Made by a program: the position numbers and the translations under genes. Under the pieces are notes generated by a model, which did not search any database, was not told the origin of the DNA, and worked only from the letters and a program-made list of their open reading frames with translations. Of a stretch of DNA of 64,000 nucleotides, positions 34,431-58,335 are shown in pieces. Source of the stretch: Erysipelotrichaceae bacterium (lineage in GTDB: Bacteria > Bacillota_I > Bacilli_A > Erysipelotrichales > Erysipelotrichaceae). Numbering within the stretch: position 1 is the first letter of the stretch; each line of letters opens with the position of its first letter. The stretch is taken from the NCBI GenBank assembly GCA_022772735.1, contig JALEZD010000008.1, forward strand, positions 62,001 through 126,000, read 5' to 3'.

Positions 34431-34454
34431 ACAGTAATGTATAGTGAGGTAATT

Positions 34455-35363
34455 ATGAAGAAATTTATTAAAATTATTATTGTAATTGTAGTATTAGTTT
34501 TATGTTATATAGGGTATTCAATATTTTTTACCCAAAAAGAAAACGTGCAAACAAAACAAGAGGGCGAACAATCTAGTGTTGGATTATCAATTTCTGGTGG
34601 TGGACAAGAAGCTGAAAGTGAAGTTGTTGAAACAAATGAAGGAGTTGTTTATACAGGTAAAGTTATTCCAGTTGAAACTAGATATTACACAAAAGATTCT
34701 ACAAAAGAATTTAAAGGTGTGTATGTGAATGCTGGAGATTTAATTGAAAAAGGAAAAGTTTTATTTGATTATTACCCTGATTATTCAGCAGATGCTCAAA
34801 TAGAAGTTTTAAATAAAGGTTTTTCAAGATTACAACAAGAGTTAAATGATTACTATTCAAGAATTGAAGAGTATAAATCTTGGCTTGCAGGTTCTAGTGA
34901 TAATGCATATAACGAATATTTAAGAAATGAAATAAAAAATACTGAAGAATTAATTGCAAAAAATAAAGTTGAATGGATTAAGGCAGAAGAATCAATAAGA
35001 AAACTAAGAGATGGTAAAGATGATTATTTTGTAAAATCAGAAATTAGCGGTTTAGTTTATGCGGTTAACAAAGATAACACTTTAACACCTAGCAACAATA
35101 TTTCTTCATTTGTAACAGTTTATTCACTTGAAAAGAAAGTAAGAATTAGCGTTAGCGAATATGAATATAAAACATTACAAGAAGGTGAAAAAGTTAAAGT
35201 CAAAATTGAAGGTTTAAACAAAGAATATGAAGGTACAATTATAAAAATCGATTCTTTACCAAATAATTTAGAAAGCAGTGATACATCTTATTATAATGTT
35301 GATGTTTCAATAGAAGATGAAGTTCCTTATGGATATACTGCAGTTGTTACGGTGAAAAAATAA
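34455..35363 (+). CDS. MacA/HlyD-like adaptor of an ABC exporter
   Basis: A 302-residue membrane-anchored adaptor: one N-terminal membrane helix (about 2-22), then a barrel-sandwich half VVYTGKVIPVETRYY, a coiled-coil hairpin (about 115-185, Glu/Lys rich), the second half-motif EISGLVYAVNKDNTLTP, and beta-barrel strands to VTVKK at the end. Gram-positive adaptors of this kind work with MacB-type exporters, encoded next with a one-base overlap. An upstream ATG at 34437 falls at the predicted transcription start; GTGAGG at 34444-34449 supports ATG 34455. Likely cargo is a peptide or drug; not known. Confidence 0.85.
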   Translation: MKKFIKIIIVIVVLVLCYIGYSIFFTQKENVQTKQEGEQSSVGLSISGGGQEAESEVVETNEGVVYTGKVIPVETRYYTKDSTKEFKGVYVNAGDLIEKGKVLFDYYPDYSADAQIEVLNKGFSRLQQELNDYYSRIEEYKSWLAGSSDNAYNEYLRNEIKNTEELIAKNKVEWIKAEESIRKLRDGKDDYFVKSEISGLVYAVNKDNTLTPSNNISSFVTVYSLEKKVRISVSEYEYKTLQEGEKVKVKIEGLNKEYEGTIIKIDSLPNNLESSDTSYYNVDVSIEDEVPYGYTAVVTVKK

Positions 35364-48735: not shown

Positions 48736-49410
48736 ATGATTTTAAAAGAAATACCAAAAAGTGAAAGACCTAGAGAAAAAGCACTTAAATTTGGGATTAC
48801 TGCTTTAAGTAATAGAGAGTTAATAGCAATATTAATTAAAACAGGATTCCAAGGATATTCTAGTTTGAAAATTGCAGAAGATGTTTTAAAAATTTCAAAT
48901 GGAATTGGTAATTTGTCTAAATTAGAACTACGAGATTTTTTAAAAGTTAAAGGTATCAAAGAAGCAAAAGCCCTTGAAATACTTGCTTGTATAGAACTTT
49001 CAAAAAGGCTGAACTATGAAGAGTGTTTAGATTTAAATATCATTGATAGACCAAAAGCTTTAATAACATGGCTTAATAAAGAAATTGGAAGTAGTCAACA
49101 AGAACAGTTTATGGTTGTTTATTTAAATACTAAAAACAGAATAATTACTTATAGAATATTATTTAAAGGTACAATTGATTCAAGTTTAATACACCCTAGA
49201 GAAATTTTTAAAGAGGCACTATTATTGTCTTCCTCTAAAATACTTTTAGTTCATAATCATCCTAGTGGGGACACTACACCAAGTGATGCAGATATAAAAA
49301 GTACATATAAAATTATTGAAGCAGGTAATTTGATGGGAATAAAAGTTATCGATCATATTATTGTAACCTGTAATAAACATTTTAGTTTTGTAAATGAAGG
49401 AATAATTTAA
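48736..49410 (+). CDS. radC: RadC family JAB/MPN domain protein
   Basis: A 224-residue RadC protein: N-terminal helix-hairpin-helix part (RPREKALKFGITALSNRELIA lies at about 11-31; LKVKGIKEAKALEI) and a C-terminal JAMM metalloprotease-like domain with E-x..., HNHPSGDTTPSDAD (about 172-185). The metal-site residues are intact. Despite the name, a DNA-repair role is not supported in the literature and the function is unknown. Normal length. Ribosome binding site TGAGGA. Confidence 0.93.
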   Translation: MILKEIPKSERPREKALKFGITALSNRELIAILIKTGFQGYSSLKIAEDVLKISNGIGNLSKLELRDFLKVKGIKEAKALEILACIELSKRLNYEECLDLNIIDRPKALITWLNKEIGSSQQEQFMVVYLNTKNRIITYRILFKGTIDSSLIHPREIFKEALLLSSSKILLVHNHPSGDTTPSDADIKSTYKIIEAGNLMGIKVIDHIIVTCNKHFSFVNEGII

Positions 49411-49488: not shown

Positions 49489-50490
49489 ATGAATAGAAAA
49501 CTTTTAATCCTTTTAACATTAATGATGACTTTATTAAGTGGATGTACAAATATAAGCAATCAAGTTGCATATACTGTTTATCCTATTGGATATATTTTAC
49601 AAAGAGTTGGTGGAAATAACTATAAATATGAATCAATTCAAAATAGTGAGATAGTACAAAGAGCAACCATAAAAGAAAATTATGAAGAAATTTTAAAAAA
49701 CTCTGAAGTATTATTTAATGTTGGGAAACTTGAACCGTATTTATCTGTTTATAATGATACTGTTTCAAAATTTTCAAAATCGAGCTACGATTTATCGTCT
49801 TTAAATGCAATTTATACTTTTCAAAGATATACACCTGTTTATAATGATGGAGATATAACATATATTGAAGGTCCATATTACAAAGGGGATGAGTTTAACT
49901 TAATAGATGTAAATTCAAAAGATTTATTTTTATGGATTGATCCAATCGCAATGTTAAGTATGTCAAAAAATATAAAAGATTGGATGATAAAAACATATCC
50001 TGAAGATGAAAAACTTTTTAGTGAAAACTATGCAGTTTTAGAAAATGATTTAGTTAGATTGGATGCTGAATATCAAGCGTTATCAACAAAAATTCAATCA
50101 ACTAATAAAGAAATAAAATTTGTTAGTATGACTGCCAGTTTTGGAAATTGGCAAAAAACATATGGTATTCAAGTATATCCAATAATTCTTTCAAAATATG
50201 GTAGTTTACCCAATGATGAACAACTTGAAATAATTAAAACAAGAATAAAAAATGATAATGTTAAATATATAGTATATGAGCCAAATATGAGTAATGATAT
50301 GGCAAAATTATTTGAACAGCTTGTAAATGAATTAGGTTTAACAAGAGTTGAGCTTTCTAATTTAAGCAGTTTAACATCTTCACAAGAGAATAATGGTAAA
50401 GACTACATTTCAATTATGTATGAAAATTTGAGTGTTTTAGAAACTATGGCTAGTGATATAGTAAAATCTGATACAACAAAAACAGAATAA
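49489..50490 (+). CDS. ZnuA/TroA-fold lipoprotein lacking all metal-binding histidines
   Basis: A 333-residue lipoprotein: signal peptide with lipobox LLSGC (Cys19). The fold signature of cluster A-I (Zn/Mn) binding proteins is visible: VYPIGYILQRVGG at the N-terminus, EVLFNVGKLEPYL (about 73-85), LFLWIDPIAMLSMSKNI (about 146-162), ASFGNWQKTYGI (about 216-227), IVYEPNMSNDMAKLF (about 261-275). In real ZnuA proteins the corresponding places hold His ligands (PHxWLDP, HxAFGYF). Here they are Phe147 and Thr215, and the protein contains no His at all. Binding of zinc by the usual site is therefore excluded. No permease or ATPase is adjacent; it has its own promoter and terminator. Ligand unknown. 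Confidence 0.8.
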   Translation: MNRKLLILLTLMMTLLSGCTNISNQVAYTVYPIGYILQRVGGNNYKYESIQNSEIVQRATIKENYEEILKNSEVLFNVGKLEPYLSVYNDTVSKFSKSSYDLSSLNAIYTFQRYTPVYNDGDITYIEGPYYKGDEFNLIDVNSKDLFLWIDPIAMLSMSKNIKDWMIKTYPEDEKLFSENYAVLENDLVRLDAEYQALSTKIQSTNKEIKFVSMTASFGNWQKTYGIQVYPIILSKYGSLPNDEQLEIIKTRIKNDNVKYIVYEPNMSNDMAKLFEQLVNELGLTRVELSNLSSLTSSQENNGKDYISIMYENLSVLETMASDIVKSDTTKTE

Positions 50491-50491
50491 T

Positions 50492-50513
50492 ACAGCAATT
50501 GCTGTGTTTTTTT
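50492..50513 (+). terminator. Intrinsic terminator after the ZnuA-like gene
   Basis: ACAGC / GCTGT stem (50492-50496 with 50501-50505), AATT loop, then an eight-base T run after one G. Confidence 0.82.
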
Positions 50514-50543: not shown

Positions 50544-50579
50544 TAGAATAACCTTTTTATAGGTGTGATGAGGGATAAT

Positions 50580-51164
50580 ATGAAAAATTTACTTGGTTAT
50601 CAAGTTTCAGAATATGATTGTGGTACAACTTGTTTAAAAAATGGGTTGAGCTATTTGTTTGACAGGAATGAAATTCCTGTTGAACTTTTAAAAATAATTA
50701 ACTTATATTCATTAGATTTAGCTAATCAAAAAGGTATTTTTGGAAAAATGGGAACATCGGATATTGCACTTAAGCATATATGTGAAAGCTTTAATGATTA
50801 TTCTAAAAAAACAAAGTTTAATCTAAGTTGTAAAATAATTGAAAAAAGCGATGTTAATTTTAATAATTGTGAACTGATAAATTGTTTAAAAAATAATGGT
50901 GCATTTATTGTTAAATGTATGATAGGTATTCCACATTTTGTTTTAGTAACTGATATTTTAGATGGATATGTTTATTTTTTTGATCCTTATTATAGAAAGA
51001 AAGCTTTTTATGAAAAAGATGTTGAAATAGTTGATATGCCATTTAGGGCAAATAGGAAAATCAGTATAAAGAAAATGGAATTGATTAGAAATATTTATTT
51101 TTCACTTGGTGAAATAGAATCTAGAATTGCGATGACTTTTAACAAAATTAAGGAGAAAAAATAA
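50580..51164 (+). CDS. C39-like cysteine peptidase at the head of the pot operon
   Basis: A 194-residue stand-alone protein with the papain-like C39 triad: Gln8 (oxyanion) and Cys14 in [17 protein letters not shown], His119 in [12 protein letters not shown] and Asp135 in YFFDPYY. C39 domains usually form the N-terminal part of bacteriocin exporters, where they cut double-glycine leaders. Here there is no transporter domain and no signal peptide, so it should act in the cytosol. It shares one base with potA and the operon promoter lies just upstream, so it is co-transcribed with the polyamine importer. Starts at 50565 and 50568 are also in frame; GAGGG at 50570-50574 favours 50580. Its substrate is unknown. 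Confidence 0.82.
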
Positions 51165-52132
51165 TGAACGAAATAATTCTTCAATTAAAAAATGTAAAAA
51201 AATCATTTAATGATAATGATGTTTTAAAAGGTATTACTCTTGATGTAAAAAAAGGTGAGTTTATAACACTTTTAGGTTCATCTGGTTGTGGTAAAACTAC
51301 TACAATTAGAATAATTGCAGGTTTAGAAAACTTAGATTCTGGTGAAGTCATTTTAAATGGTAAACTCATTAACAATTTAGAGCCAAACAAAAGAGATGTA
51401 AATACTGTTTTTCAAAATTATGCACTTTTTCCTCATATGAATGTTGAAAAAAATATTAGTTATGGTTTGAAAATCAAAAAAATTCCTAAAGAACAAATTG
51501 ATGAAGAGGTAAAACAAGCTTTAAAGCTTGTTCAGTTAGAAGGTTTTGAGAAAAGGATGACAAACGAGTTATCAGGTGGGCAAAAACAAAGGGTTGCAAT
51601 AGCACGTGCAATAGTAAATAAACCTAGTGTTTTGTTGCTTGATGAACCACTTGGAGCATTAGATTTAAAACTTAGAAGACAAATGCAAGTTGAATTAAAA
51701 AAATTACAAAAACAGTTAGGAATTACTTTTATTTATATTACTCATGATCAAGAGGAAGCAATAAATATGTCTGATAGAATTGTGGTTATGAATAATGGCG
51801 TTTTTGAACAAATAGGAACTCCCAATGAAATATACTACACTCCAAAATCAACATTTGTTGCAAGTTTTATTGGTGGTGCAAATATATATAAAATTAATAA
51901 TAAAACTTTTGCGATAAGAGGAGAAAATATTGAAATTAATAAAGGAGATTTAAAAGCAAAGGTAATAGAAAAATCGTTTGTAGGAGGTCAATTAAAAATA
52001 TCATTTTTACTTGATGATGGCCAGATTTTAACTTCAAGCCATTCAGGAGTTGACTATCCACTTGATATTAATCAAACTGTAAATATTTTTTGGGATAAAA
52101 AATATCAAATAGAGGTAATTGATAATGGTTAA
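51164..52132 (+). CDS. potA: Spermidine/putrescine ABC importer ATPase
   Basis: A 322-residue PotA-type ATPase: Walker [10 protein letters not shown] (about 37-45), Q-loop [14 protein letters not shown], signature [14 protein letters not shown] (about 134-147), Walker [14 protein letters not shown] (about 154-166), H-loop ITHDQEEAI, and a short C-terminal TOBE-type region (about 240-322). It is shorter than E. coli PotA (378 residues) because that region is reduced. One-base overlap with the C39-like gene and overlap with potB. It would energise polyamine uptake with PotB, PotC and PotD below. Confidence 0.94.
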
Positions 52133-52976
52133 ATTTATTAAAAATAAAGTATTAAAATTTCCAATTTATTTTTACACTATATCATTTATACTTTTGCCAA
52201 TTATTTATTTGTTTATTTTAAGCTTTATGAGTAAAGCAGAAACTTGGGGTATTGAATTTGTTTCAACATTAGATAATTATAAAAATGTATTTGATAAATT
52301 TTATTTAAAAATATTTTTAAATTCTTTAAAATTGGCACTTTTATCAACATTTTTTGTTGCGATTATAGGATATCCATATGGTTATTTCATGGCAAAACTT
52401 AATAATAAATGGAAAAAAATATTTATGATATTGTTGATGATTCCATTTTGGACAAGTGGATTAATTAGACTTAACGGATGGATTATTATTTTTAGAAGTA
52501 ATGGTGTTTTAGATAAATTACTAATGATGTTTAATGTTATTGAAAAGCCACTTAAACTTTTATACTCATATCCTGCAGTTTTAGTGGGAATGATATATTT
52601 TTTACTGCCATTTATGATATTAGCTGTCTATTCAAGCGTGGAAAAAATGGATTGGAACTTAGTTGAAGCAGCAAGAGATTTGGGAGCTTCTTCGTTTCAA
52701 ACATTTATGACGATAACATTTAAATTAACTATTCCAGGTTTGTTAAGTGGACTTATTTTAACATTTGTTCCAAGTATGGGATTGTTTTATATTGCAGAAG
52801 TATTAGGTGGTAATAAAATAGTTTTAATAGGAAGTGTTATTTCTGAACAAATTACTAAAGGAAGAAACTTACCATTTGCAGCTGCATTGAGTGTTATTTT
52901 AATGATTATAACTTCAATAATACTTAGATTATATAAAAAGATTTCATCCAAAGATGAATTGGAGGGATTATTTTGA
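52125..52976 (+). CDS. potB: Spermidine/putrescine ABC importer permease PotB
   Basis: A 283-residue permease with six membrane segments and the EAA loop [19 protein letters not shown] (about 175-193) that contacts PotA. Family-typical segments: [11 protein letters not shown] and [22 protein letters not shown] at 52119 is in frame, but GAGG at 52112-52115 is spaced for ATG 52125. Overlaps potA by 8 bases and potC by 4 bases. Confidence 0.94.
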
Positions 52977-53752
52977 AAAAGATATCTAAACCTGCAATTA
53001 TATTTTTATTCTTGATAACCATTTTGAATTACTTACCAATCATATTAACTGTTATTTATTCATTTAACTTTTCTAAAATAACTAGTGTCTGGGGAGGTTT
53101 TTCATTAAAGTGGTATAAATTATTATTTGAAAATAGAGATATACAACAGTCGTTTATAAATAGTCTAATATTAGCATTTTTTAGTTGTTTTTTTGCAGTA
53201 ATTATTGGAGTTAGTGCTGCAATATCAATGCGAAACAAACAAACTAAGTTAGATAAATTTATTACATACTTTAGCACATTACCAATTATGATTCCTGAAA
53301 TAATTTTAGGAATGTTATTTATGGCTATATTTTCATTTATTAACATACCATTTGGATTTATAACTTTAATAATTGCGCATACATCATTTTGTATACCTTA
53401 TGTATTTTTAATTGTTAAATCAAGATTAATTGGAATGGATGATACTTTAATTGAAGCTGCAAAAGATTTAGGAGCATCTAATCTTCAAATATTTGTGGAT
53501 ATAGTTTTGCCATATATTTATCCAAGTATAATTAGTGGTGTTCTTTTATCATTTGCGATGTCTTTTGATGATGTGGTGATTTCAATATTTACAACTGGTT
53601 CAACTGTAAATTTATTAGCCATTAAAATATACACTAGAATGAAAACAGGTGTTACACCTGAAATAAATGCATTAGCGACAATAATATTAATAATAACTGT
53701 TATAATTATTATTGTTTTTGAAAGAATTAATTCAAAACATGAAAAATTTTAA
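52973..53752 (+). CDS. potC: Spermidine/putrescine ABC importer permease PotC
   Basis: A 259-residue permease with six membrane segments and the EAA loop EAAKDLGASNLQIFVDIVL (about 160-178). The segment MSFDDVVISIFTTGSTVNLLAIKIYTRMK begins at about 196 and is characteristic of PotC. The start codon is TTG (52973-52975), with GGAGGG at 52961-52966 six bases upstream and no better ATG nearby. The overlap with potB is 4 bases. Confidence 0.93.
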   Translation: MKKISKPAIIFLFLITILNYLPIILTVIYSFNFSKITSVWGGFSLKWYKLLFENRDIQQSFINSLILAFFSCFFAVIIGVSAAISMRNKQTKLDKFITYFSTLPIMIPEIILGMLFMAIFSFINIPFGFITLIIAHTSFCIPYVFLIVKSRLIGMDDTLIEAAKDLGASNLQIFVDIVLPYIYPSIISGVLLSFAMSFDDVVISIFTTGSTVNLLAIKIYTRMKTGVTPEINALATIILIITVIIIIVFERINSKHEKF

Positions 53753-53764
53753 AAGGAGAAAGAA

Positions 53765-54826
53765 ATGTTAAAAAAACTTGGAGTTATATTATCTGTTTTT
53801 ATTTTAGTATCAGGTTGCACAAGTAAGCAGGTTGATAAAAAATTTTCGGGTAGTACATTAAATTTATTTACATGGGATGGAATGTTTCCACAAGAAGTTT
53901 TAGATAGTTTTGAGGAAGAAACAGGAGCCAAAATTAATTATTCTAATTTTGATTATGATGAAACAATGTTATCTAAATTATCAGAAGCTAAAGGTGGAGA
54001 TTATGATGTTGTTATTGCGGATGATTATATCATTGAAGTTGCAATTAAAGAAGGACTGGTTGCTAAGTTAGATAAAAATAAAATTACTACTTTTGAAAAC
54101 ATAAATCCTTTATTTCAAAATCAATTTTTTGATTTAAATAATGAATATACAGTACCTTATGGTGCAGGTATTCCACAAATAGTTTATAATCCGGAAGAAA
54201 TTAATTTTGATGTTACAGGATATGAAGATTTATGGAATGAATTATTGGTAAATAATGTTGGTATAACTGCAAACTATCGTGTTATAAATGGTATTACTTT
54301 GAAAACTTTAGGGTATTCATTTAATACAAATAACTTAGAAGAAATAAATGAAGCAAAGGATAAGCTATTAAAGTTAGCACCAAATATTAGAGTCATTGAT
54401 GATAATAATTTACAAGATTATTTAATAAGTGGTGAAATTAGCATTGGATTTATGTATAATTCTCAAGTTTTCCAAGCGCTACAAGCTAATCCAAATTTCA
54501 AAGCTGTTTATCCAAAAGAAGGTTTAGGTTTTGGTTTGATGGCTGCCTTTATTCCAGTAAATGCACCGAATAGTGATTTAGGACATGCTTTTTTAGAGTA
54601 TATAAATAGACCAGAAGTAGCTGCAAAATGTTTTGAATATTTAGGTTATTTTTCTACGAATAAGGCTGCAGATAGCCTAATAAATGATGAATTAAAACCA
54701 TTAATTGTATTTCCAGAAGAACTTGAAGATTTATTAAAAAATGCTGAAATCATTGAAAACGTAAGTGATGAAGCAAATGAATTACATACTAAAGTTTGGG
54801 AAGAGTTTAGACAAGCTACAAATTAA
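53765..54826 (+). CDS. potD: Spermidine/putrescine-binding lipoprotein PotD
   Basis: A 353-residue substrate-binding lipoprotein: lipobox LVSGC (Cys18), then the PotD start LNLFTWDGMFPQEVLDSFEEE (about 31-51), YDVVIADDYII (about 80-90) and PYGAGIPQIVYNPE. The acidic and aromatic residues that bind polyamine amines in PotD (for example Asp in VIADDY and Trp in FTWDGM) have counterparts. It is the last gene of the operon, with AAAGGAGAAAG before its ATG. No clear terminator follows. Confidence 0.93.
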   Translation: MLKKLGVILSVFILVSGCTSKQVDKKFSGSTLNLFTWDGMFPQEVLDSFEEETGAKINYSNFDYDETMLSKLSEAKGGDYDVVIADDYIIEVAIKEGLVAKLDKNKITTFENINPLFQNQFFDLNNEYTVPYGAGIPQIVYNPEEINFDVTGYEDLWNELLVNNVGITANYRVINGITLKTLGYSFNTNNLEEINEAKDKLLKLAPNIRVIDDNNLQDYLISGEISIGFMYNSQVFQALQANPNFKAVYPKEGLGFGLMAAFIPVNAPNSDLGHAFLEYINRPEVAAKCFEYLGYFSTNKAADSLINDELKPLIVFPEELEDLLKNAEIIENVSDEANELHTKVWEEFRQATN

Positions 54827-55794: not shown

Positions 55795-58335
55795 ATGAAA
55801 AAAATGTTATTAGTAGATGGATACTCAATGTTGTTTAGAGCTTTTTATGCAACTGCATATGGAAAAATGATGACAACAAAAAAAGGTATTCCTACAAATG
55901 CGATATATGGATTTGCGAACATGTTACAGAAAGCTATTGATATAGTTCAACCTGATTATTTAGTAGTTGCATTTGATGCAGGTAAATCAACTTTTAGAAA
56001 TGAAATATTTTCTGATTATAAAGGTACACGAAAATCAGCCCCTGAAGAACTTATCCCACAATTTCAATTAGTTAGAGATTATTTGAATTCTTTTAACATT
56101 AAGTATATAGAAAAACAGGGATTTGAGGCAGATGATATTATTGGTACAATCGCAAAAAGATATCCTGAATATGATATAAATATTTTAACTAGTGATAGAG
56201 ATATGCTTCAACTTATTGATGAAACAACTTCTGTTTGGTTAATGAAAAAAGGTATAAGTGAAATTGTTAAAATGGATGAAAAACAACTATTTGATGATAT
56301 GGGTATAAGTCCTAGTCAAATAATTGAGCTTAAAGCACTTATGGGAGATACTGCAGATAATATTCCTGGTATTGCAGGAATTGGTGAAAAAACTGCATTA
56401 AAATTAATTGAAGAATATAAATCTATTGAAAACCTATTTCAAAATGTAGACTCTTTAAAAGGTAAACTGAAAGAAAAAATTGAAAATGGAAAAGACAGCG
56501 CATTTATGAGTAAAAAGCTTGCAACAATTATTACTGATGCAGATATTCCTGTCGAAGATTATACATTTAGTCCAAATTATAAAACTTTAGTTTCATTTTT
56601 AGATGTAATAGAAATGAATAGTATTAAAAAACGATATGAGCCACTTGTAGCTAGTAATACTTTAAAAACAGAAGATGAATATATAATTGTAAATAAAATT
56701 CCCGATGAATTTAAAAAGGAGATTTTATATATAGCTCTTGATGATGATAAAGAAGTTTTTTATAAATCAAAATTAAATGGTATTGCAATAAATAATGGAG
56801 AAAAAACTATTTATATAAACATAGATGATGTTTTAAAAGATACTAATTTATTAAATATTTTAAAAAGTGACAGTTTAAAAGTTGGTTATGATTGTAAAAG
56901 AGATTTACATATTTTAAAAAAATATGGAATTTATATTAACTATGGATATGATGTAATGATTTCATCGTTTTTGTGTGATAGCACTTTAACAAGTTTAGAT
57001 AAGATAATTGAAAATTATAATCTTAATACTTTAAGTAAGGAGCTTAATAACGTAGAATATACAACAACATTAGCCATAAATATAAATAAATTATATTTTG
57101 AAACTGTTAGTGTTCTTAAGGAATATGATTTAGAAGATTTATTTTATAATTTAGAGCTTCCACTTTCAAAAGTGTTATTTAAAATGGAAGAAGAAGGTGT
57201 AAATGTTGATGTTGAAGTGTTAGATAAAATATCTAATGAAACACTTGATAGAATTAATGAGCTTACAAAACTTATTTATGAAATATCAAATGTTGAATTT
57301 AATATCAATTCTCCAAAACAATTGGCAGAAATATTATTTGATACATTAAAACTACCTGCGAATAAGAAAAGAAGCACATCTGTTGATGTTTTAGAAAAAT
57401 TGCAGGGTATACATCCAATAATCGATTATTTAATGGAATATAGAAAATTACAAAAAATATACAGTACATACTCTGAAGGATTAAAAAAATATATTCAGGT
57501 TGATGGTAAGATGCATACGGTTTTTAATCAATGTATAAGCCAAACTGGCAGATTATCAAGTACTGATCCAAACTTACAAAATATATCTGTAAAGGATGAT
57601 GTTGGAAAACAAATAAGAAGGGCTTTTTTACCGAGTAATAATAATGTTTTACTATCATGTGATTACTCTCAAGTTGAGCTTAGAGTATTAGCTGATATGG
57701 CTAATGAAAAGGGTTTAATAGAAGCTTTTAATTCTAAGATGGATATACATACTAAAACAGCAATGGATGTTTTTAATGTAAGTGAGAGTGAAGTTACATC
57801 ATCATTAAGAAGACAAGCTAAAGCTGTTAATTTTGGAATTGTGTATGGTATTAGTGATTTTGGTTTAGCTGAACAGTTAGGTATTACAAGAAAAGAAGCC
57901 AAAGAATTTATGGATATTTATAATGAAAAGTTTCCAAGAATTCATGAGTATATGAATGAAGTCATAGAATATTGCAAGGAAAATGGTTATGTAAAAACAC
58001 TTTTAAATAGAAGAAGATTCATTCCACAAATAAATGATAAATCACATATGATTAGAGAATTTGGAAAGCGTGCAGCTATGAATGCACCAATACAGGGTAC
58101 AGCAGCTGATATAATAAAACTTGCGATGATAAATATAGATAGTGAAATTGAAAGATTAAATCTAAAATCAAAAATGATTTTACAGGTTCATGATGAATTA
58201 ATTTTTGATGTTTATGATGATGAAATTGAAATAATGAAAAATTTGATTGAAGATAAAATGAGTAATGCTTATAAATTAAAAGTTCCACTTTTTGTTGAAG
58301 CTAAATGTGGTAAAAACTGGTTAGAGGCTAAATAA
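55795..58335 (+). CDS. polA: DNA polymerase I
   Basis: An 846-residue family A polymerase for Okazaki fragment processing and repair. Domains: 5' nuclease (about 1-290; LLVDGYSMLFRAFYA, YKGTRKSAPEEL, EADDIIGTIA, TSDRDMLQL, GDTADNIPGIAGIGEKTA), a 3'-5' exonuclease fold (about 300-460) and the polymerase (about 470-846; motif A CDYSQVELR, motif B RRQAKAVNFGIVYGIS, motif C QVHDELIF). The exonuclease fold lacks the usual D-x-E first motif (LYIALDDDKEVFY in its place), so proofreading is probably absent, as in Bacillus and Thermus enzymes. Its stop shares a base with mutM. Confidence 0.97.
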   Translation: MKKMLLVDGYSMLFRAFYATAYGKMMTTKKGIPTNAIYGFANMLQKAIDIVQPDYLVVAFDAGKSTFRNEIFSDYKGTRKSAPEELIPQFQLVRDYLNSFNIKYIEKQGFEADDIIGTIAKRYPEYDINILTSDRDMLQLIDETTSVWLMKKGISEIVKMDEKQLFDDMGISPSQIIELKALMGDTADNIPGIAGIGEKTALKLIEEYKSIENLFQNVDSLKGKLKEKIENGKDSAFMSKKLATIITDADIPVEDYTFSPNYKTLVSFLDVIEMNSIKKRYEPLVASNTLKTEDEYIIVNKIPDEFKKEILYIALDDDKEVFYKSKLNGIAINNGEKTIYINIDDVLKDTNLLNILKSDSLKVGYDCKRDLHILKKYGIYINYGYDVMISSFLCDSTLTSLDKIIENYNLNTLSKELNNVEYTTTLAININKLYFETVSVLKEYDLEDLFYNLELPLSKVLFKMEEEGVNVDVEVLDKISNETLDRINELTKLIYEISNVEFNINSPKQLAEILFDTLKLPANKKRSTSVDVLEKLQGIHPIIDYLMEYRKLQKIYSTYSEGLKKYIQVDGKMHTVFNQCISQTGRLSSTDPNLQNISVKDDVGKQIRRAFLPSNNNVLLSCDYSQVELRVLADMANEKGLIEAFNSKMDIHTKTAMDVFNVSESEVTSSLRRQAKAVNFGIVYGISDFGLAEQLGITRKEAKEFMDIYNEKFPRIHEYMNEVIEYCKENGYVKTLLNRRRFIPQINDKSHMIREFGKRAAMNAPIQGTAADIIKLAMINIDSEIERLNLKSKMILQVHDELIFDVYDDEIEIMKNLIEDKMSNAYKLKVPLFVEAKCGKNWLEAK

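Follow-up and report, generated by a model that had tools for sequence, protein, structure and literature searches.

The window, a 64,000-nt stretch of an Erysipelotrichaceae genome, holds on its forward strand a gene that starts with ATG and encodes a lipoprotein of 333 amino acids, preceded by radC and followed at some distance by polA (Table 1). The protein carries the lipobox LSGC of bacterial lipoproteins (Cys19) and matches the ZnuA profile PF01297 across residues 26-318 (97.3 bits, gathering score 29, E=1.4e-27), and its translation contains not a single histidine; the preliminary description, a histidine-free ZnuA-family lipoprotein with signal peptide and lipobox, was thus correct on each of these points. 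The NCBIfam cut-offs for AdcA (NF033605, 72.3 versus 700 bits), AztC (NF040870, 41.4 versus 350 bits) and ZnuA (NF007091, 23.6 versus 268 bits) were missed by the protein, and its closest solved relatives by sequence are YcdH of B. subtilis and pneumococcal AdcA. The gene had also been credited with a promoter and a terminator of its own. The second holds, with two terminators found in the region against 0.3 expected in shuffled sequences, which is above chance; the first is not supported, promoter-like sites in the region showing no excess (20 found, 19.6 expected in shuffles).

Table 1 Features of the lipoprotein gene and its locus, in window coordinates
Feature	Coordinates	Strand	Basis
radC, upstream of the lipoprotein gene in the conserved locus	48736..49410	+	synteny; named from sequence
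ZnuA-fold lipoprotein gene without canonical metal ligands	49489..50490	+	ORF, translation; PF01297; orthologues
Signal peptide and lipobox, residues 1-19, lipidation site Cys19	49489..49545	+	sequence LSGC; Cys in 110/110 orthologues
Gln57, first zinc-ligand His position	49657..49659	+	His in 11/11 canonical; Gln in 108/110 orthologues
Segment with beta-hairpin, residues 99-141 (Arg113, Glu127, Tyr131)	49783..49911	+	alignment, model strands
Phe147, second zinc-ligand His position	49927..49929	+	His in 11/11 canonical; replaced in orthologues
Thr215, third zinc-ligand His position	50131..50133	+	His in 10/11 canonical; Thr in 92, Ser in 18 of 110 orthologues
Ser293, acidic zinc-ligand position	50365..50367	+	Ser in 106 of the 108 orthologues not gapped at this site
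Intrinsic-terminator-like hairpin and T run, straight after the stop codon	50489..50518	+	scan match 50489-50508 plus T-rich tail
polA	55795..58335	+	ORF, synteny; Pfam DNA_pol_A on orthologue

Taken alone, the absence of histidine is a weak and only mildly unusual signal, and we rejected it as the key observation: at the histidine frequency of the window (1.16%), 3.9 residues would be expected in this protein and none would occur with a Poisson probability of ~0.02, and of the 50 window ORFs that reach 200 aa, 3 lack histidine altogether (the other two lie at 34437-35363 and 52119-52976). The strong half of the signal is the loss of ligands at specific positions. Orthologues have a median of two histidines, which almost never fall at ligand positions (3/110 at position 147 and 1/110 at position 293); seeming orthologues with 8-14 histidines proved to be products of untrimmed N-termini. 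The proposal that alignment might reveal a conserved histidine-free clade was therefore upheld in one part, the ligand loss extending throughout the clade, and not in the other, the complete lack of histidine.

To compare the ligand positions, 110 orthologues were aligned with 11 canonical ZnuA proteins from related genomes. The zinc ligands of AdcA are His63, His140, His204 and Glu279 (PMC7858048), and their equivalents in the window protein are Gln57, Phe147, Thr215 and Ser293, respectively. Phe147 and Thr215, which had been singled out as changed ligands from the sequence of the gene alone, indeed stand where YcdH and AdcA as well as the related ZnuA proteins have their canonical histidines; Gln57 and Ser293 add two further losses. 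The acidic position is itself mixed among the canonical proteins (Glu in five, His in four, Ala in two). At position 147 the orthologues have Tyr (49), Phe (20), Met (9), Cys (7) or His (3) among other residues, 107 of the 110 being non-His, and, judged from the alignment, this position is too variable for a ligand role. Neither the window protein nor its clade thus has the ligand set of the metal carriers, in which an Asp or Glu joins either three His or two His and a Glu, and homologues with intact ligand histidines, which would have pointed to decay in the window genome, were not found among the orthologues, since these also lack the canonical ligands.

The residues that replace the ligands bear directly on whether metal is still bound in some other way, for instance by a metal store, sensor or chaperone that uses Glu264, tyrosines or, where present, His77. 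Glu264 is invariant (109/109 orthologues) and His77 occurs in 70/110 orthologues, or 8/30 in a one-per-genus set; residue 77 is elsewhere Tyr, Asn, Glu or others, and Asn in the window protein. All four canonical ligands are gone, and where their replacements are conserved they are Gln, Thr or Ser. These three residues are poor transition-metal ligands. Although the affinity of the streptococcal carrier AdcAII, which tolerates the loss of single ligands, falls only gradually when they are changed (PMC8416893), we regard metal binding through other ligands as improbable for the clade. Weak or unusual binding may occur in some members, because His147 is present in three orthologues and His77 in 70 of the 110.

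Structure prediction had been proposed as a check on the fold, a better match to a non-metal family being the outcome that would speak against the assignment. An AlphaFold model built from a 30-row orthologue alignment (mean pLDDT 89.5) conforms to the cluster A-I solute-binding fold, which is defined by two lobes and a rigid helix between them, and has a long helix at residues 171-204. The best 50 PDB matches listed for it are cluster A-I proteins, among them AdcA, YfeA, Lbp, TroA and PsaA, with TM-scores on the target of ~0.8 (mostly 0.74-0.86), and no better non-metal fold appeared among these 50. The protein therefore belongs to the ZnuA superfamily by both sequence and fold, but it lacks the ligand set that defines the metal carriers. 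Furthermore, residues 99-141, which in canonical ZnuA proteins are mostly gapped or variable and often form a His-rich loop, constitute a conserved segment in the clade, with strands at 113-119 and 122-128 in the model and with Arg113 and Tyr131 present in all 110 orthologues. The loops that follow the strands on the cleft side carry 3.24 bits of information compared with ~2.7 elsewhere, a difference equalled in 1 of 10000 permutations of random labels and in 4 of 296 rotations; we consider this test supportive rather than decisive, since the loop classes were assigned by hand from the secondary structure of the model and not from coordinates.

The distribution of the gene was determined with an alignment-based scan of the order (a single-sequence scan of genome contigs gave no match), which found orthologues in 225 of 316 genomes, all carriers listed being Erysipelotrichaceae. 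At 36-70% identity, they are spread over most of the genera sampled in the family; carriers include Holdemania, Anaerorhabdus furcosa and many metagenome-assembled genomes labelled Solobacterium or Erysipelotrichaceae. An exploratory tree built from 43 proteins unites the Erysipelotrichaceae sequences in a long-stemmed clade with full SH-aLRT support. Presence and absence map onto a polA tree with about four changes, and most non-carriers have the order radC-mreC-mreD-polA with an empty mreD-polA interval. We infer ancestral presence followed by several losses; the direction is an inference because the polA tree is midpoint-rooted. Close orthologue pairs gave dN/dS values of 0.01-0.13, the 30-row alignment has 30 columns that do not vary among its 30 genomes, and reading frames are intact throughout the family. 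Decay from a former zinc carrier would account for the loss of every canonical ligand and for the repeated loss of the gene, but it is contradicted by the selection test and is scarcely credible; the earlier view that the gene is functional is instead well supported by its conservation and by purifying selection. At the level of sequence comparison, the orthologues constitute a conserved, selected clade of predicted ZnuA-fold lipoproteins without the canonical metal site.

The locus is conserved as well. In its fullest form radC, mreC, mreD, minC, minD and genes for an AI-2E family protein, an M23-like protein and an M50 protease lie upstream, and the lipoprotein gene is followed by polA, mutM, coaE, dnaB, dnaI, pfkA and pyk; parts of the upstream stretch are absent in several genomes, and polA comes next in nearly all. 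In the window polA, the direct downstream neighbour in most relatives, has been displaced by an insertion (50565-54826) that comprises a gene for a C39-peptidase-like protein and a potABCD-like importer and was found only in the genus of the window, including two other sampled genomes. MreC was considered as a partner and rejected, since its presence is uncoupled from that of the lipoprotein (26/41 carriers and 13/17 non-carriers) and the window genome has no MreC. Two Erysipelotrichaceae genomes (G018 and G057) gave no MreC, ABC-3 or PolA match despite being listed as 98-99% complete and are possibly unusual or mis-assigned.

These neighbours also weigh on the idea that the protein serves an unrelated ABC permease encoded elsewhere, its cleft having been altered for an organic or anionic solute. 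The carrier fold, with its highest conservation in the cleft loops, would suit such a role, as would the precedent of AdcAII, an orphan carrier that shares the permease AdcCB with AdcA (PMC8416893). No permease gene is conserved alongside the lipoprotein gene, however, and the adjacent potABCD-like block was rejected as its transporter, being limited to one genus and equipped with its own potD-like protein. Moreover, the Glu of the EP[ST] signature that follows the third-ligand region in canonical proteins (9/11) is Leu240 in the window protein. We therefore hold service to an unrelated permease to be unlikely, if worth keeping in view.

A zinc importer proved a poor match at the level of the clade. 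No ZnuB-type permease lies beside the lipoprotein gene in the loci read, and the protein does not qualify as a component of a ZnuABC or AdcABC importer, which would have its permease and ATPase genes next to it or at least in the genome. A strong ABC-3 permease match (PF00950, E<1e-20) is missing from 25 of the 41 carrier genomes sampled, and 21 have no match even at E<=1e-3, compared with 13 of 14 control genomes that were positive; a ZnuBC-type importer therefore cannot be the general partner. The remaining 16 of the 41, the window genome included, do have an ABC-3 permease, so that sharing is possible in principle and the lipoprotein could act there as a second zinc carrier, feeding the AdcCB importer of the same cell in the manner of AdcAII. 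The window genome also has a separate zur-adcA-adcC-adcB-like operon (within 57001-65000 of contig C23; names taken from translations) whose AdcA has 493 aa. With all four zinc ligands replaced, an AdcA already present in that operon and a strong match missing from 25 of the 41 carriers, a second zinc carrier is very improbable, and a shared AdcBC importer was rejected for the clade as a whole. From the lack of an adjacent permease, the 25 of 41 genomes and the window genome's own operon, we conclude that the lipoprotein is not generally the carrier of a zinc importer.

Taken together, the evidence favours, with a probability of roughly 0.6, a vertically inherited, Erysipelotrichaceae-specific lipoprotein whose ancestor was a solute-binding protein of cluster A-I (ZnuA type) and which no longer acts as the metal carrier of a ZnuBC-type importer. 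All four zinc-ligand positions are replaced across the clade, three of them by one polar type of residue (Gln57, Thr or Ser at 215, and Ser293). The protein is probably anchored at the outer face of the membrane, where its two lobes may use the conserved cleft to hold a polar non-metal ligand or a peptide or protein segment. It would then act as a non-transport component of the envelope, such as a sensor, a scaffold or a chaperone-like factor; service to an unrelated permease as its carrier is less likely. That the cleft should still bind something is suggested by the retention of Gln, Thr/Ser and Ser at the former ligand positions and by the cleft loops being the most conserved; among the roles first suggested, which were binding of another ligand, of a protein or of metal through acidic or Tyr residues, a non-metal one is favoured because of these same replacements, the variability of position 147 and the lack of a strong ABC-3 match in most carriers. 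The lipoprotein thus probably has a different, undescribed job, since its zinc positions are all replaced and the matching zinc pump is often absent from the genome. The broader proposition that the whole family has recast a carrier for metal import as an ancestral envelope lipoprotein with no part in transport, with a new, conserved cleft of receptor-like or partner-binding kind and a fixed place beside polA and the mre/min genes, is put forward tentatively, as plausible rather than probable.

The practical consequence is that a match to PF01297 readily earns such proteins the name of a zinc or manganese transport protein, which is very likely wrong for this clade and hence for hundreds of genomes. 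The clade is a clean natural example of functional change in a binding-protein fold. Related lineages have partly changed forms, and the cultured carriers Holdemania filiformis and Anaerorhabdus furcosa would allow tests of ligand and role. No published work on the Erysipelotrichaceae ZnuA-like lipoprotein was found in the literature searched, which is not proof that none exists.

Among the systems with which the clade can be compared are orphan ZnuA-like lipoproteins of other families in the same class (f13, f14 and f17), which likewise have no adjacent ABC-3 gene in the loci read, a partly changed ligand set and a Trp in the third-ligand motif. In contrast to the clade, they keep two or three His with one or two ligands changed and have none of the Erysipelotrichaceae motifs; with these ligand histidines kept, they were rejected as distant members. 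An ABC-3 permease was present somewhere in all 19 class genomes checked. The f14 type, seen at 11 loci, sits in a conserved locus resembling tilS-hpt-ftsH-S4 protein-X-lysS-cysK (names judged from translations) and keeps the first two His, with mostly Val, Thr, Ser or Ala at the third position and Gly at the acidic one. The f13 type, at two loci beside tmk/holB-like genes, has three His and Ala at the acidic position and is weakly nearest to the clade in the tree. Orphans of these types may resemble intermediate stages, but even the nearest is joined to the clade with weak support (79). The stand-alone streptococcal zinc carriers AdcAII, Lmb and Lbp are likewise cluster A-I lipoproteins, but AdcAII keeps His65, His141, His205 and Glu280 whereas the Erysipelotrichaceae clade has lost its ligands and most of its sampled carriers have no strong ABC-3 match. 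The best sequence and structure matches are YcdH and the N-terminal, ZnuA-like domain of AdcA (PF01297), with which the clade shares its lipoprotein nature, the fold with its long connecting helix, a DxxxWxDP-type motif and a C-terminal YxxxMxxNL-type motif; it differs from them in having no adjacent zinc permease and ATPase and in carrying a conserved segment in the variable loop region.
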